A stretch of DNA of 53,929 bases, from contig PESC01000031.1 in NCBI GenBank assembly GCA_002929135.1, forward strand, positions 1 through 53,929, given 5' to 3'. Below the pieces are notes generated by a model. The model was not told the origin of the DNA, searched no databases, and worked only from the letters and a program-made list of their open reading frames with translations. Made by a program: the position numbers and the translations under genes. The DNA comes from Methylomonas sp. (lineage in GTDB: Bacteria > Pseudomonadota > Gammaproteobacteria > Methylococcales > Methylomonadaceae). This document shows positions 7,309 to 41,922 of this stretch, piece after piece (within the stretch, counting starts at the first letter, position 1; each line of letters opens with the position of its first letter).

Positions 7309-8271
7309 CTATCGGGCGATGATAGACGCCGCCTGCAAGTCGGCGTGATACGACGAGCGCACCAGCGGTGCGCTGGCGACTTGTCCAAACCCCAGTGACC
7401 GTGCAATCTCGCCGTAGCGTTTGAACTGTTCGGGGTGGATGTAGGCCTTGACTGCCAGGTGAGCCTTGCTGGGCTGCAAGTACTGACCCAGCGTCAACAT
7501 GCTGCAACCGTGGGCCAGCAGGTCGCGCATGACGTCAACCACCTCGTCTTCCGTTTCGCCCAATCCCAGCATCAGCCCCGATTTGGTTGGCACCTGCGGT
7601 AGCCGCGCCTTGTGTTGTTGCAACAACCGCAACGATGCCTGGTAATCGGCACCGGGACGTGCCTCACGATACAGCCGGGGCACGGTTTCCAGGTTGTGGT
7701 TGAACACGTCGCAGGGTTGAGATGCCAGGATTTCGATTGCTACCTCCATGCGACCGCGAAAATCCGGCGTCAGGATTTCAAGGGTGGTGTCGGGCGTCTT
7801 GGCACGGATCGCCGCGATGCAGGCGGCGAAATGGCTGGCGCCGCCGTCGCGCAAATCGTCGCGGTTGACCGATGTCACCACCACATATTTCAGCGCCATG
7901 TCGAAGACGGTATCGGCCAGATTGCTCGGCTCGTCCGCATCCAGCGCCTTGGGTTTGCCGTGGGCGACATCGCAGAACGGGCAGCGCCGGGTGCACAGGT
8001 CACCCATAATCATGAAGGTGGCGGTGCCGTGACTGAAGCATTCGCCCAGATTGGGGCAGGCGGCTTCCTCGCAGACGCTATGCAGGCGCTTGTCGCGCAA
8101 GGTTTGCTTGATTTGATTGACCTTGTCGCCACTCGGCAATTTGATGCGTATCCAGTCCGGCTTGCGCAACACGGTTTCAGGCGTTTCGACTTTGATCGGG
8201 ATGCGCGACAGCTTGTCGGCGTTGCGTTGGTGAGTTTGCGGGGTCGAGCGCGACGGTGCATTCGGTTTCAT
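7309..8271 (-). CDS. lipA: Lipoyl synthase (radical SAM)
   Basis: Inserts two sulfur atoms into protein-bound octanoyl groups to form lipoyl cofactors. The 320-residue protein has both cluster motifs: the auxiliary [12 protein letters not shown] and the radical [37 protein letters not shown] and the C-terminal RSSYHA serine ligand are also present. The ATG at 8271 overlaps the lipB stop (ATGA), giving the usual length; a longer in-frame start inside lipB is not favoured. It works with LipB and ends the dacA-dat-ybeD-lipB-lipA run. Confidence 0.95.
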
Positions 8272-23097: not shown

Positions 23098-23212
23098 GGC
23101 GGCGATTGATGGGGTGGGGGCGCCTATTTGAGAGCCAGGTGGCAGAGGAAATGTTTGTTTCAGCAAACCCGCATCCGGGTTTCTAAACGTGCTGACAACA
23201 ACTCGCCAGCGC

Positions 23213-23241
23213 GCCCCTTACCCCAACGGGCTTCGCCCCGA
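23213..23241. repeat. Partial copy of the CCCTCACCCCAAC palindromic element
   Basis: GCCCCTTACCCCAACGGGCTTCGCCCC matches, with few changes, the left end of the element at 27208-27332 and of the copy inside mfd at 39448. Only the first ~28 bp are present. It lies just beyond the bfr stop. Confidence 0.5.
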
Positions 23242-27131: not shown

Positions 27132-27207
27132 GGTGTGTTTGGGTGTTGCATGCAAGCTAGAGTTTGAGTAACTATGGATTTGGTCATTGATAACGTCCCT
27201 ATTGATA

Positions 27208-27332
27208 CCCTCACCCCAACCGGCTTCGCCCCCTCGCTACGCTCTCCCCGGAGGGAGAGGGGCTTTACCTTCCCTTTTCCCTAAGGGAGAGCGTAGCGAG
27301 GGTAGGCGTAGCCAGGGTCGGGGATGAGGGGC
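27208..27332. repeat. Long palindromic repeat element (about 125 bp)
   Basis: The left arm (from 27208: CCCTCACCCCAACCGGC, later CTCGCTACGCTCTCCC) is an imperfect inverted copy of the right arm ending at 27332 (GGGAGAGCGTAGCGAGGG, later GGGGATGAGGGG). A smaller hairpin (CTCTCCC/GGGAGAG) lies inside the left arm. The left half matches the insert in mfd (39448-39510) over about 60 bp, and a short piece lies at 23213. It occupies the gap upstream of ileS and looks like a non-autonomous dispersed element. Confidence 0.8.
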
Positions 27333-38319: not shown

Positions 38320-38391
38320 ACATTGACGGGTTCACGGTCAGGACGATACCTGCCGGATCGATGCCAAGCCGCCCCTCCCGAATCACACGCC

Positions 38392-41300
38392 ATGACATCC
38401 AGCCCTATCTTCAATACCCCTCTGCCCCAGCGTAACGACCAAGCCGTCTATTGGTCGGGCCTGCCCGGATGCGCCGACTCACTGGCGCTGGCTGAAATCG
38501 TCAACCGCGAAAAACGCCTGTTGGTCGTCGTCACCGCCGACAGCCAGACGGCACTACGCATCGAGCATGAACTCGGGTTTTTCCTGGAAGGTGCGCACCC
38601 GATTCTGCAATTTCCCGACTGGGAAACCCTGCCCTACGACATATTCTCACCGCTGCCGGAAATCATCTCGGAACGGCTGCGCACCTTGGTGCTGCTGCCC
38701 GAAATCCGACAAGGCGTACTGATTGTGCCGGTTTCCACCCTGATGTACCGGCTGGCACCGCGTGAACACATTCTGGCGCACAGTTTCTCCATCGAAGTGG
38801 GCGGCACGCTGAATCTGGAACTGACCCGCATCAAACTGGAAGCCGTCGGTTATCAATGCGTGTCGCAGGTTTATCAGCACGGCGAATTCGCCGTGCGCGG
38901 CTCGATACTGGACTTGTTCCCGATGGGTTCGAAGCAACCGTATCGGATCGAACTGTTCGATGACGACATCGAATCGATCCGCAGCTTCGACCCCGACACC
39001 CAAATGTCGCAAGACAAAATGCCCAAGGTCGAACTGTTTCCGGCCCGGGAATTTCCGTTCACCGACGACGCCATCAAACGCTTCCGCCAGGCCTTCCGCG
39101 AGCAGTTCCCGGATGCCTCGCCAAAGAACACGCTGTACCTGGACGTTTCCAGGCAAATCGCTCCGGCAGGCATCGAGTATTACCTGCCGCTGTTCGTCGA
39201 ACGCACCGAATCCCTGTTCGCCTATCTGCCCGACACCGCACTGCTGGCGCTGCCAGCAGGCTTTGCCGACAGCGCCGAACGTTTTTTTCGCGAAGCCGAC
39301 GAGCGTTACCAGCAACGCAAATACGACAGCGAGCGGCCACTACTGCCACCGGAGCGGCTGTTTTTGTTGGCGGATGAACTGATTCGGCTTACGGCGGGAT
39401 TTGGGCGCATCGTGCTGGAAAACAGCGCATCCCCAACCAGTACCGCGCCCCTCACCCCAACCGGCTTCGCCCCCCTCGCTGCGCTCTCCCCCAAGGGAGA
39501 GGGGCTTTTTCGCTCCGGCTGCCACCACCTCCCCAACCTCGCCATCGATAACCGCCTGAAACAACCGGCGCAGGCTTTACGCCAGTTCATCGACGGTTTT
39601 GGCGGCAAAATCCTGTTCGTTGCCGAAACCGCTGGCCACCGCGAAGGCCTGATCGAAAAACTGAAAAGCGTCAAACTCAGCGTCAAGCAAGTACAAAGCT
39701 GGTCTGAATTCCTGCAAAGCGAACACTCGCCATGTATCGTCGTTGCGCCTATGGATCAGGGTCTTTGGCTGGAAGACTCCAGACTGAGTGACCTCGGGCT
39801 GGCCATCATCACCGAAAGCCAGCTCAGCGGCGAGAAAGCACAGCAGCGCCGTCGCCGCGCCAAGTCGACCGCCCGTGCACTGGAAAACATCTTCAACAAT
39901 CTGAACGAACTCGGCATCGGTTCGCCGGTGGTGCATCAGGAGCACGGCGTTGGCCGCTACCAGGGCTTGCAAACCCTGACCGTCGGCGGCATGGCAGCCG
40001 AGTTTCTGATGCTGGAATATGCCGGTGGCGACAAAATTTACGTGCCAGTAGCGTCGTTACATCTGATAGGCCGTTACAGCGGCGTCAGTGCCGAAAACGC
40101 GCCGCTGCACAAACTGGGTAGCGAGCAATGGAGCAAGGCCAAACAAAAAGCCATGGAACGCGCCCGTGACGTGGCCGCCGAATTGCTGGACATCCACGCC
40201 AAACGTGCCGCCCGTGCAGGCTTTGCCTTCAACATCGACGACAGCGATTACGCTGCTTTTGCCGCTGCCTTCCCGTTCGAAGAAACCCCGGATCAACTCA
40301 GCGCCATCGAGGCCATTCTGCAAGACATGACGGCGCCGCAACCCATGGACCGCGTGGTGTGCGGCGATGTCGGCTTCGGCAAGACCGAAGTGGCGATGCG
40401 TGCCGCCTTCGTTGCGGTGCAAAGCGGCAAACAGGTGGCGGTACTGGTGCCGACCACGCTGCTGGCGCAACAGCATTACCAGAACTTCCGTGACCGCTTC
40501 GCCGACTGGCCCATCCGTGTCGAAGTGATGTCGCGCTTCGTCAGCGCCAAACAGCAGAAAGCCATCAGCGACGATCTGGCCGACGGCAAGGTCGACATCG
40601 TCATCGGCACCCACAAGCTGCTGGCCAAAGACATGCGTTACCAAGCCCTGGGCCTGGTCATCATCGATGAAGAACATCGTTTCGGTGTCAGCCAGAAAGA
40701 GCATTTCAAGAAACTGCGCTACGAACTGGATTTGCTGACGCTGACCGCAACGCCGATTCCGCGCACCCTGAACATGGCCATGGCCGGGCTGCGTGACATT
40801 GCCATCATCGCCACGCCGCCACCCAATCGTCATGCCATCAAAACCTTCGTCAGCGAATGGATAGATTCACAAGTCCAGGAAGCCTGTCAGCGCGAAATCA
40901 AGCGCGGCGGTCAGGTGTTCTTTTTGCACAACGATGTCAAGACCATGGACAAAATGGCTCGCGAGCTGGAAGCCTTGGTGCCGGAAGCGCGGATTCAGAT
41001 CGCCCACGGCCAAATGGCCGAGCGCGAGCTGGAGCAGATCATGCTGGATTTCTACCACCAGCGTTTCAACCTGCTGATTGCCTCCACCATCATCGAAAGC
41101 GGCATCGACATACCCAGCGCCAACACCATCGTCATCAACCGCGCCGACAAGCTGGGCCTGGCGCAGTTGCACCAGTTGCGCGGTCGGGTTGGCCGCTCGC
41201 ATCACCGCGCCTATTGCTACTGCATCGTGCCGCCGAAAACCCTGATGACCAAAGACGCCATCAAGCGGCTGGAGGCCTTCGCAAGCTCTGGCGAACTCGG

Positions 41301-41922
41301 CGCCGGTTTCATGCTGTCATCGCACGACATGGAGATACGCGGCGCCGGTGAACTGCTGGGTGATGAACAAAGCGGCCAGATTCAGGAAATCGGCTTCACC
41401 CTGTACACCGAATTGCTGGAACGCGCGGTGAAGGCGCTGAAATCCGGCAAACAGCCCGAGCTGGATGCGCCGCTGGATACCGGCCCGGAGGTGGATTTAC
41501 AAGTTGCCGCGCTAATTCCGGAAGATTATCTGCCCGACATCCACGCCCGCCTGGTGCTGTACAAACGCATCGCCAGCGCCGAAACCGAAGACGATTTGCG
41601 CAAGTTGAAAATCGAAATGATCGATCGCTTCGGCCTGCTGCCGGATCAGACCAAGGCCTTGTTCGCCATCACCGAACTCAAGCAGCAGGCCGGGCACCTG
41701 GGCATCCGCAAAATCGAGGCGCACGCCACGGGTGGTCGCATCGTGTTCAGCACCACGCCCGACATCGACACCGGCGAGTTGATCGCCATGATGCAAAACC
41801 AAGCAGCGATGTATAAATTCGACGGCGACGATAAACTGCGGTTTAACCAGCCGTTCAACAGCCTGGATGACAAAGTAACGTTTCTACAGACACTGCTGAC
41901 ACGATTGCGGCCCAAAACCTGA
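38392..41922 (+). CDS. mfd: Transcription-repair coupling factor with repeat-derived insert
   Basis: Removes RNA polymerase stalled at lesions and recruits UvrA. The 1176-residue protein has UvrB-like domains, the RNAP-interaction region (VVHQEHGVGRYQGL), Walker A GDVGFGKTE, DEEH in IIDEEHRFG, the RGRVGRSHHRAYCY region and a TRCF domain. The ATG at 38392 is chosen for family fit. Residues 353-373 ([21 protein letters not shown]) are translated from a palindromic repeat element inserted in frame in a loop between LENSAS and HLPNLAI. The reading frame stays intact, so the protein is probably functional. Confidence 0.96.
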   Translation: MTSSPIFNTPLPQRNDQAVYWSGLPGCADSLALAEIVNREKRLLVVVTADSQTALRIEHELGFFLEGAHPILQFPDWETLPYDIFSPLPEIISERLRTLVLLPEIRQGVLIVPVSTLMYRLAPREHILAHSFSIEVGGTLNLELTRIKLEAVGYQCVSQVYQHGEFAVRGSILDLFPMGSKQPYRIELFDDDIESIRSFDPDTQMSQDKMPKVELFPAREFPFTDDAIKRFRQAFREQFPDASPKNTLYLDVSRQIAPAGIEYYLPLFVERTESLFAYLPDTALLALPAGFADSAERFFREADERYQQRKYDSERPLLPPERLFLLADELIRLTAGFGRIVLENSASPTSTAPLTPTGFAPLAALSPKGEGLFRSGCHHLPNLAIDNRLKQPAQALRQFIDGFGGKILFVAETAGHREGLIEKLKSVKLSVKQVQSWSEFLQSEHSPCIVVAPMDQGLWLEDSRLSDLGLAIITESQLSGEKAQQRRRRAKSTARALENIFNNLNELGIGSPVVHQEHGVGRYQGLQTLTVGGMAAEFLMLEYAGGDKIYVPVASLHLIGRYSGVSAENAPLHKLGSEQWSKAKQKAMERARDVAAELLDIHAKRAARAGFAFNIDDSDYAAFAAAFPFEETPDQLSAIEAILQDMTAPQPMDRVVCGDVGFGKTEVAMRAAFVAVQSGKQVAVLVPTTLLAQQHYQNFRDRFADWPIRVEVMSRFVSAKQQKAISDDLADGKVDIVIGTHKLLAKDMRYQALGLVIIDEEHRFGVSQKEHFKKLRYELDLLTLTATPIPRTLNMAMAGLRDIAIIATPPPNRHAIKTFVSEWIDSQVQEACQREIKRGGQVFFLHNDVKTMDKMARELEALVPEARIQIAHGQMAERELEQIMLDFYHQRFNLLIASTIIESGIDIPSANTIVINRADKLGLAQLHQLRGRVGRSHHRAYCYCIVPPKTLMTKDAIKRLEAFASSGELGAGFMLSSHDMEIRGAGELLGDEQSGQIQEIGFTLYTELLERAVKALKSGKQPELDAPLDTGPEVDLQVAALIPEDYLPDIHARLVLYKRIASAETEDDLRKLKIEMIDRFGLLPDQTKALFAITELKQQAGHLGIRKIEAHATGGRIVFSTTPDIDTGELIAMMQNQAAMYKFDGDDKLRFNQPFNSLDDKVTFLQTLLTRLRPKT
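39448..39510. repeat. Palindromic element copy inside mfd coding sequence
   Basis: About 60 bp starting CCCCTCACCCCAACCGGC and ending AAGGGAGAGGGGCTT match the left half of the element at 27208-27332 with few changes. The insertion keeps the reading frame and adds about 20 residues rich in Pro, Ala, Gly and Thr. The hairpin CTCTCCC/GGGAGAG is kept. Confidence 0.85.

Follow-up and report, generated by a model that had tools for sequence, protein, structure and literature searches.

The window, the whole stretch of 53,929 nucleotides that was analysed, is contig 22 of a Methylomonas draft genome (2.57 Mb, 63 contigs, 95.86% complete), which was placed in one genus with genomes G001 to G024. Its mfd gene lies in a frame that is open and stop-free throughout from 38323 to 41922, with TTG 38323 as the first codon; the gene itself probably starts at ATG 38392. 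The features relevant here are as follows.

38392 to 41922, forward strand: mfd (transcription-repair coupling factor), 1176 aa from ATG 38392, from the open reading frame and family models
39424 to 39522, forward strand: the entire variable loop of Mfd, bounded by RIVLEN and HHLPNLAIDN and 33 residues long, from alignments and AlphaFold
39449 to 39508, forward strand: left-half copy of a palindromic element in mfd, 60 bp, 20 codons, in frame, within the codons of residues 353 to 373
27208 to 27332, forward strand: complete copy of the element, made up of two inverted halves with ends CCCTCACCCC...GGGGATGAGGGG, between reading frames with no long frame across it (inverted repeat I5)
23210 to 23239, forward strand: fragment of 30 bp from the element's left end, matching the mfd copy at 93% identity (repeat family D7; E 6.4e-6)

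The mfd product scored 1029 bits against TIGR00580 (cut-off, 800) and 1415 bits against NF007966 (cut-off, 1329) in NCBIfam, and the six Pfam domains expected of Mfd (UvrB_inter, MFD_D3, CarD_TRCF_RID, DEAD, Helicase_C, and TRCF) are all present; an earlier note on this DNA had described the protein as family-like on both sides of the insert. The repeat that the note placed at 39448 to 39510 is real, with a core match at 39449 to 39508, so that its ends shift by 1 to 2 bases, and the span does correspond to residues 353 to 373 when counted from ATG 38392. The core is 93% identical to the element query (27205 to 27332) over query positions 4 to 62; the closest other copy, C4:68605-68666, is 95% identical, and the mfd copy is therefore probably young. 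The note also gave this region about 20 residues more than in E. coli Mfd, in keeping with the 19-residue gap that phmmer leaves in the E. coli protein here, and its impression that the element can be read without stops is borne out by five of the six frames of the 66-bp copy. The net gain of mfd over its relatives is 69 bp, compared with 60 bp for the element core; among the relatives compared, none had an empty mfd or ygiQ site near enough to fix the ends of the insert. There is good support for the in-frame insertion of a palindromic repeat into an mfd that remains intact.

We collected 123 Mfd sequences, giving 109 alignment rows, of which 106 differ from one another in the compared region. 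None of the 105 other distinct proteins carries the element residues, nor do 20 further Mfd regions compared over the loop alone; distant Mfd proteins with the same residues, which the note had named as evidence against its reading, did not appear. At the class level, Mfd was compared by match length among the matches listed, a measure that may miss inserts. In the alignments the loop has 33 residues here versus 10 in most Methylomonas; across the 106 distinct proteins the window loop counts 34 residues, the median is 13, and 100 of the 106 fall between 7 and 23, the six longer ones being the window, L032, L055, L036, and two Methylobacter genes. This drift in length and composition would suit a low-complexity stretch that is ancestral to Mfd or arose by convergence, but such an origin is very improbable, given DNA that is 93 to 95% identical to copies outside mfd and residues confined to this one protein. 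Outside three Psychrobacter proteins, internal insertions of at least 12 residues are confined to this loop and the vicinity of residue 485, as found by a script that counts minority columns and thus undercounts insert lengths. The extra loop residues of L032, L035, and L074 were considered as repeats as well and are at most candidates; L035 scored 25 against the ygiQ copy described below (the top of 200 shuffles was 19) and not above shuffles against the 27208 copy (21 pairs).

An AlphaFold model of Mfd residues 1 to 497, built with 46 of 62 available relatives and with both Methylobacter inserts left out, had a mean pLDDT of 86. Values fell below 50 at residues 347 to 368, between strands at 338 to 342 and 372 to 374, although low pLDDT is expected anyway for residues without aligned relatives. 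Since MFD_D3 begins only after the insert, at residue 399, the model places the insert in a predicted disordered loop between two strands and ahead of domain D3, which supports a tolerated loop.

The element itself is palindromic. The full copy at 27208 to 27332 folds into one hairpin of -96 kcal/mol (z -9.2, 200 shuffles), is of the roughly 100 to 150 bp that also characterizes Rickettsia palindromic elements, and, as expected of a MITE, has terminal inverted repeats, here imperfect (CCCTCACCCC / GGGGATGAGGGG), and multiple dispersed copies. A 66-base query returned 56 matches in its own genome at E <= 10 and 13 at E <= 1e-10, self included, and a 128-base query returned 28 at E <= 1e-5; counts for a palindrome take in both strands, and the 28 matches therefore merge to fewer places, 21. 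Copies outside the window thus exist, in numbers above chance, contrary to the other outcome that the note had said would speak against it. The element is absent at E <= 1e-5 from the 36 other genus genomes (37 searched, own included), and 0 matches came up when the window was scanned with Rfam at its gathering thresholds. A shortened core of the element was also seen adjacent to inverted repeats like GGTCATAAATAACATC...GATGTTATTTATGACC or enclosed by them, with both arms at L014, L015, L018, and L022 and with the left arm only at L016 and L017, an arrangement that looks like a composite MITE; a further palindromic repeat like TTCCCACGCAGAGCGTGGGAACGAG recurs near element copies at L008, L017, L019, L021, and L024 (all in the window's genome).

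The half copy in mfd behaves differently from the full copy when folded: a hairpin in it was considered and is not significant against shuffles (z -0.23). We therefore regard as improbable a role for the insert as nucleic acid, namely in terminating or attenuating transcription within mfd; a 7-bp stem-loop at 39484 to 39501 is indeed followed by GGGCTTTTT, but the mfd frame as a whole has 4 terminator-like sites against a shuffled mean of 4.4 (sd 2.2).

Two of the 21 element places lie within homology-supported genes, mfd and ygiQ. The second is on another contig.

G000:C20:39169-41433: ygiQ (L012 / L267), with the element in the opposite orientation; TIGR03904, 846 bits against a cut-off of 462

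The ygiQ copy is nearly whole (80% identity over query positions 1 to 87) and is translated as SPHPSPLPEGEGAKKPSPFGESEARGAKPQGEG; it and the mfd copy are on opposite strands and in different frames, and both are in-frame insertions. The mfd insertion is therefore not a single accident. In the ygiQ search, 22 of 25 genomes matched at E <= 1e-100, own included, with one locus per genome aligned, and the element segment is absent in all 21 relatives; L281 is short in the insert region, and L268, L269, L273, and L276 have different extra residues there. The same pattern in ygiQ bears on whether the mfd locus could be an assembly chimera joined at the repeat, an explanation that a draft of 63 contigs and a repeated element might invite; both mfd flanks belong to one gene in one frame, and we give a chimera hardly any credence. 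Two scripts with different cut-offs looked for open frames across all 21 places: the element places at L003/L300 and L019 have candidate open frames of 191 and 283 codons, and at the other 17 no long frame was seen that extends 20 codons or more beyond the match on each side. Element-like segments were also observed in frame near the N terminus of a CbiE/CbiT-type protein (L026; G000:C12, match 8129-8150, E 0.04), directly after a CbiD-like frame; they may be intergenic, since it is not certain where the protein begins.

Other repeats are found in this same loop of Mfd elsewhere in Methylococcales. In G017 (MAG OWC_0100) it carries a 94-bp palindrome (z -5.9) that begins with GTAG, as GTAG REPs do, and has 16 matches (13 places) in its own genome, self included, most of them partial. 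In G034, from another family of the order, it carries a CCCTC-type palindrome (z -3.7) with 68 matches (40 places) in its own genome; this one is related to the window element and sits some residues away in the loop. Because the Methylomonas relatives aligned are without the G034 palindrome and its position is offset, it would represent an event separate from the window insertion. A third repeat, which folds weakly better than shuffles (z -2.0), is shared by the Methylobacter MAGs G187 and G171 (25 and 23 matches, 20 and 19 places), and the two Mfd inserts would go back to one ancestral event; over the empty sites of L137 and L126, the filled sites are longer by 96 bp in L150 and 84 bp in L133, both multiples of 3. 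We infer four insertion events in this loop of Mfd, with repeats of three kinds. The second loop, near residue 485, has an insert of 17 to 34 residues in five Methylomonas (L032, L036, L110, L112, and L115). A search with the DNA of this insert returned 11 matches (9 places) from G017, no copy other than itself from G018, and nothing from G006; the insert is thus repeated in one of two carriers tested, G006 not being among the five carriers, and it resembles the Methylobacter repeat slightly above shuffles.

The Methylobacter repeat also reaches into other genes. Of 30 loci fetched, two short ones were left out; in 16 of the 28 examined, the repeat lies within a frame of 230 codons or more and has no fewer than 30 codons to its left and to its right, and 3 of these 16 (L259, L263, and L265) use another frame or strand. 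At L237, L238, L241, and L250 (G187 and G171) the repeat is read much like DDCMDAGGTTPRMEEVEQRREQLPRAMQGAIAED, on the same strand and in the same frame, in Mfd, PurL, and ValS. About 30 residues of PurL (L241) are unaligned where a solved structure has two, and in ValS (L250) the repeat is flanked on both sides by sequence aligned to structure residues 605 to 619, implying additional residues. The repeat at L252 and L253 is probably upstream of the true start, and the remaining in-frame loci are suggestive only. Two further proteins look element-derived, LeuS-like L227 and DnaE2-like L208 (751 residues over 734 positions of the NCBIfam error-prone polymerase model), but neither shows a clear length gain over solved structures and they were not counted; the alignment around the repeat in LigA-like L239 was too weak.

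Several known systems resemble what we describe. Ogata and colleagues reportedly described, in 2000 and 2002, Rickettsia palindromic elements inserted in frame in protein genes. Those elements are palindromic, roughly 100 to 150 bp long, and have in-frame copies in conserved genes. The likeness drawn by the note fits this behavior, given the in-frame copies in mfd and ygiQ; it is a likeness in behavior, drawn without sequence comparison, to elements of another lineage, and the window element differs in having no long spanning frame at 17 of its 21 places. X. campestris, X. oryzae, and Thioalkalivibrio are gammaproteobacteria. The note further called an insertion in a gammaproteobacterial repair gene unusual, which stands only in part: the available portion of PMC3733652 already reports REPs inside uvrA, recBCD, DnaE2, DNA ligase, and tRNA synthetase genes, with hosts that include these three. 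According to the same portion, GTAG/CGTC REPs are, like the element here, short palindromes that are mostly intergenic and sometimes in frame within genes, where the inserts are often of 20 to 30 residues and many are in DNA repair genes; flexible linkers or loops are proposed there as neutral sites. Unlike them, the window element ends in CCCTCACC and GATGAGGGG, with neither GTAG nor CGTC at the foot of the palindrome, and no match to the Y1 (RAYT-type) transposase PF01797 was found in the host genome, where at 95.86% completeness the gene could lie in the missing part. The words "mfd" and "transcription-repair" are absent from the main text of PMC3733652, and a literature search for repeats in Mfd, with most subscription papers outside its reach, found nothing. 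RU-1, RU-2, and RU-3, enterobacterial MITE-like repeats of 103 to 168 bp, are also translated in some annotated genes, but the examples in amidase and threonine dehydrogenase are C-terminal rather than in an internal loop (PMC2759123, as far as available). Coxiella QMITE1 and QMITE2 are gammaproteobacterial MITEs that sometimes lie mid-frame and in frame; the mid-frame cases named in the accessible part of PMC5896051 are hypothetical proteins, and both sequence and host differ from those of the window element. The kind of event is already known; this analysis adds its host, its gene, and the repeated use of a single loop in Mfd.

We consider it highly probable that a palindromic repeat of MITE- or REP-like type, lineage-specific and non-autonomous, left a half-length copy at 39449 to 39508, and that purifying selection confined this copy to a tolerant Mfd loop. 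A half copy would have entered mfd within this Methylomonas lineage and landed in an exposed, disordered loop of no fixed length; as it adds 60 bp of stop-free frame to a loop of variable length, the Mfd frame would be kept, and very probably its function too, judging from the intact frame and the domains. Insertions elsewhere in mfd, or out of frame, would have been lost to purifying selection, and the same selective filter would account for the other repeats in this loop and in the second loop of other Methylococcales, the inserts presumably being neutral and the events independent. It is possible, though we think it unlikely, that the loop is instead a true hotspot, through a target preference of the element or through inserts favored for changing transcription-coupled repair and mutation rate. 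At least four apparent events in a single loop, involving repeats of three kinds, together with another repeat in the second loop, would be consistent with this, as would the argument in the available part of PMC3733652 that repair genes are targeted more than fortuitously and its example of different REPs at about the same site in recB of X. campestris and X. oryzae. However, the loop appears disordered and is variable in length, so survivorship alone predicts clustering, and ygiQ, no known repair gene, was also hit in the same genome. We hold it equally doubtful that exposed Mfd loops across Methylococcales are hit by different repeat families beyond neutral tolerance, whether by targeting or by selfish DNA retuning transcription-coupled repair, an effect already speculated on for REPs in different repair genes.

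These observations extend protein-coding palindromic repeats to free-living methanotrophs. They offer clean cases, with a disordered loop and with empty and filled sites, of selfish DNA giving conserved enzymes new segments, and since a single loop of Mfd has received repeats of several kinds, the older speculation that repair genes are targets more often than by chance becomes countable and testable.
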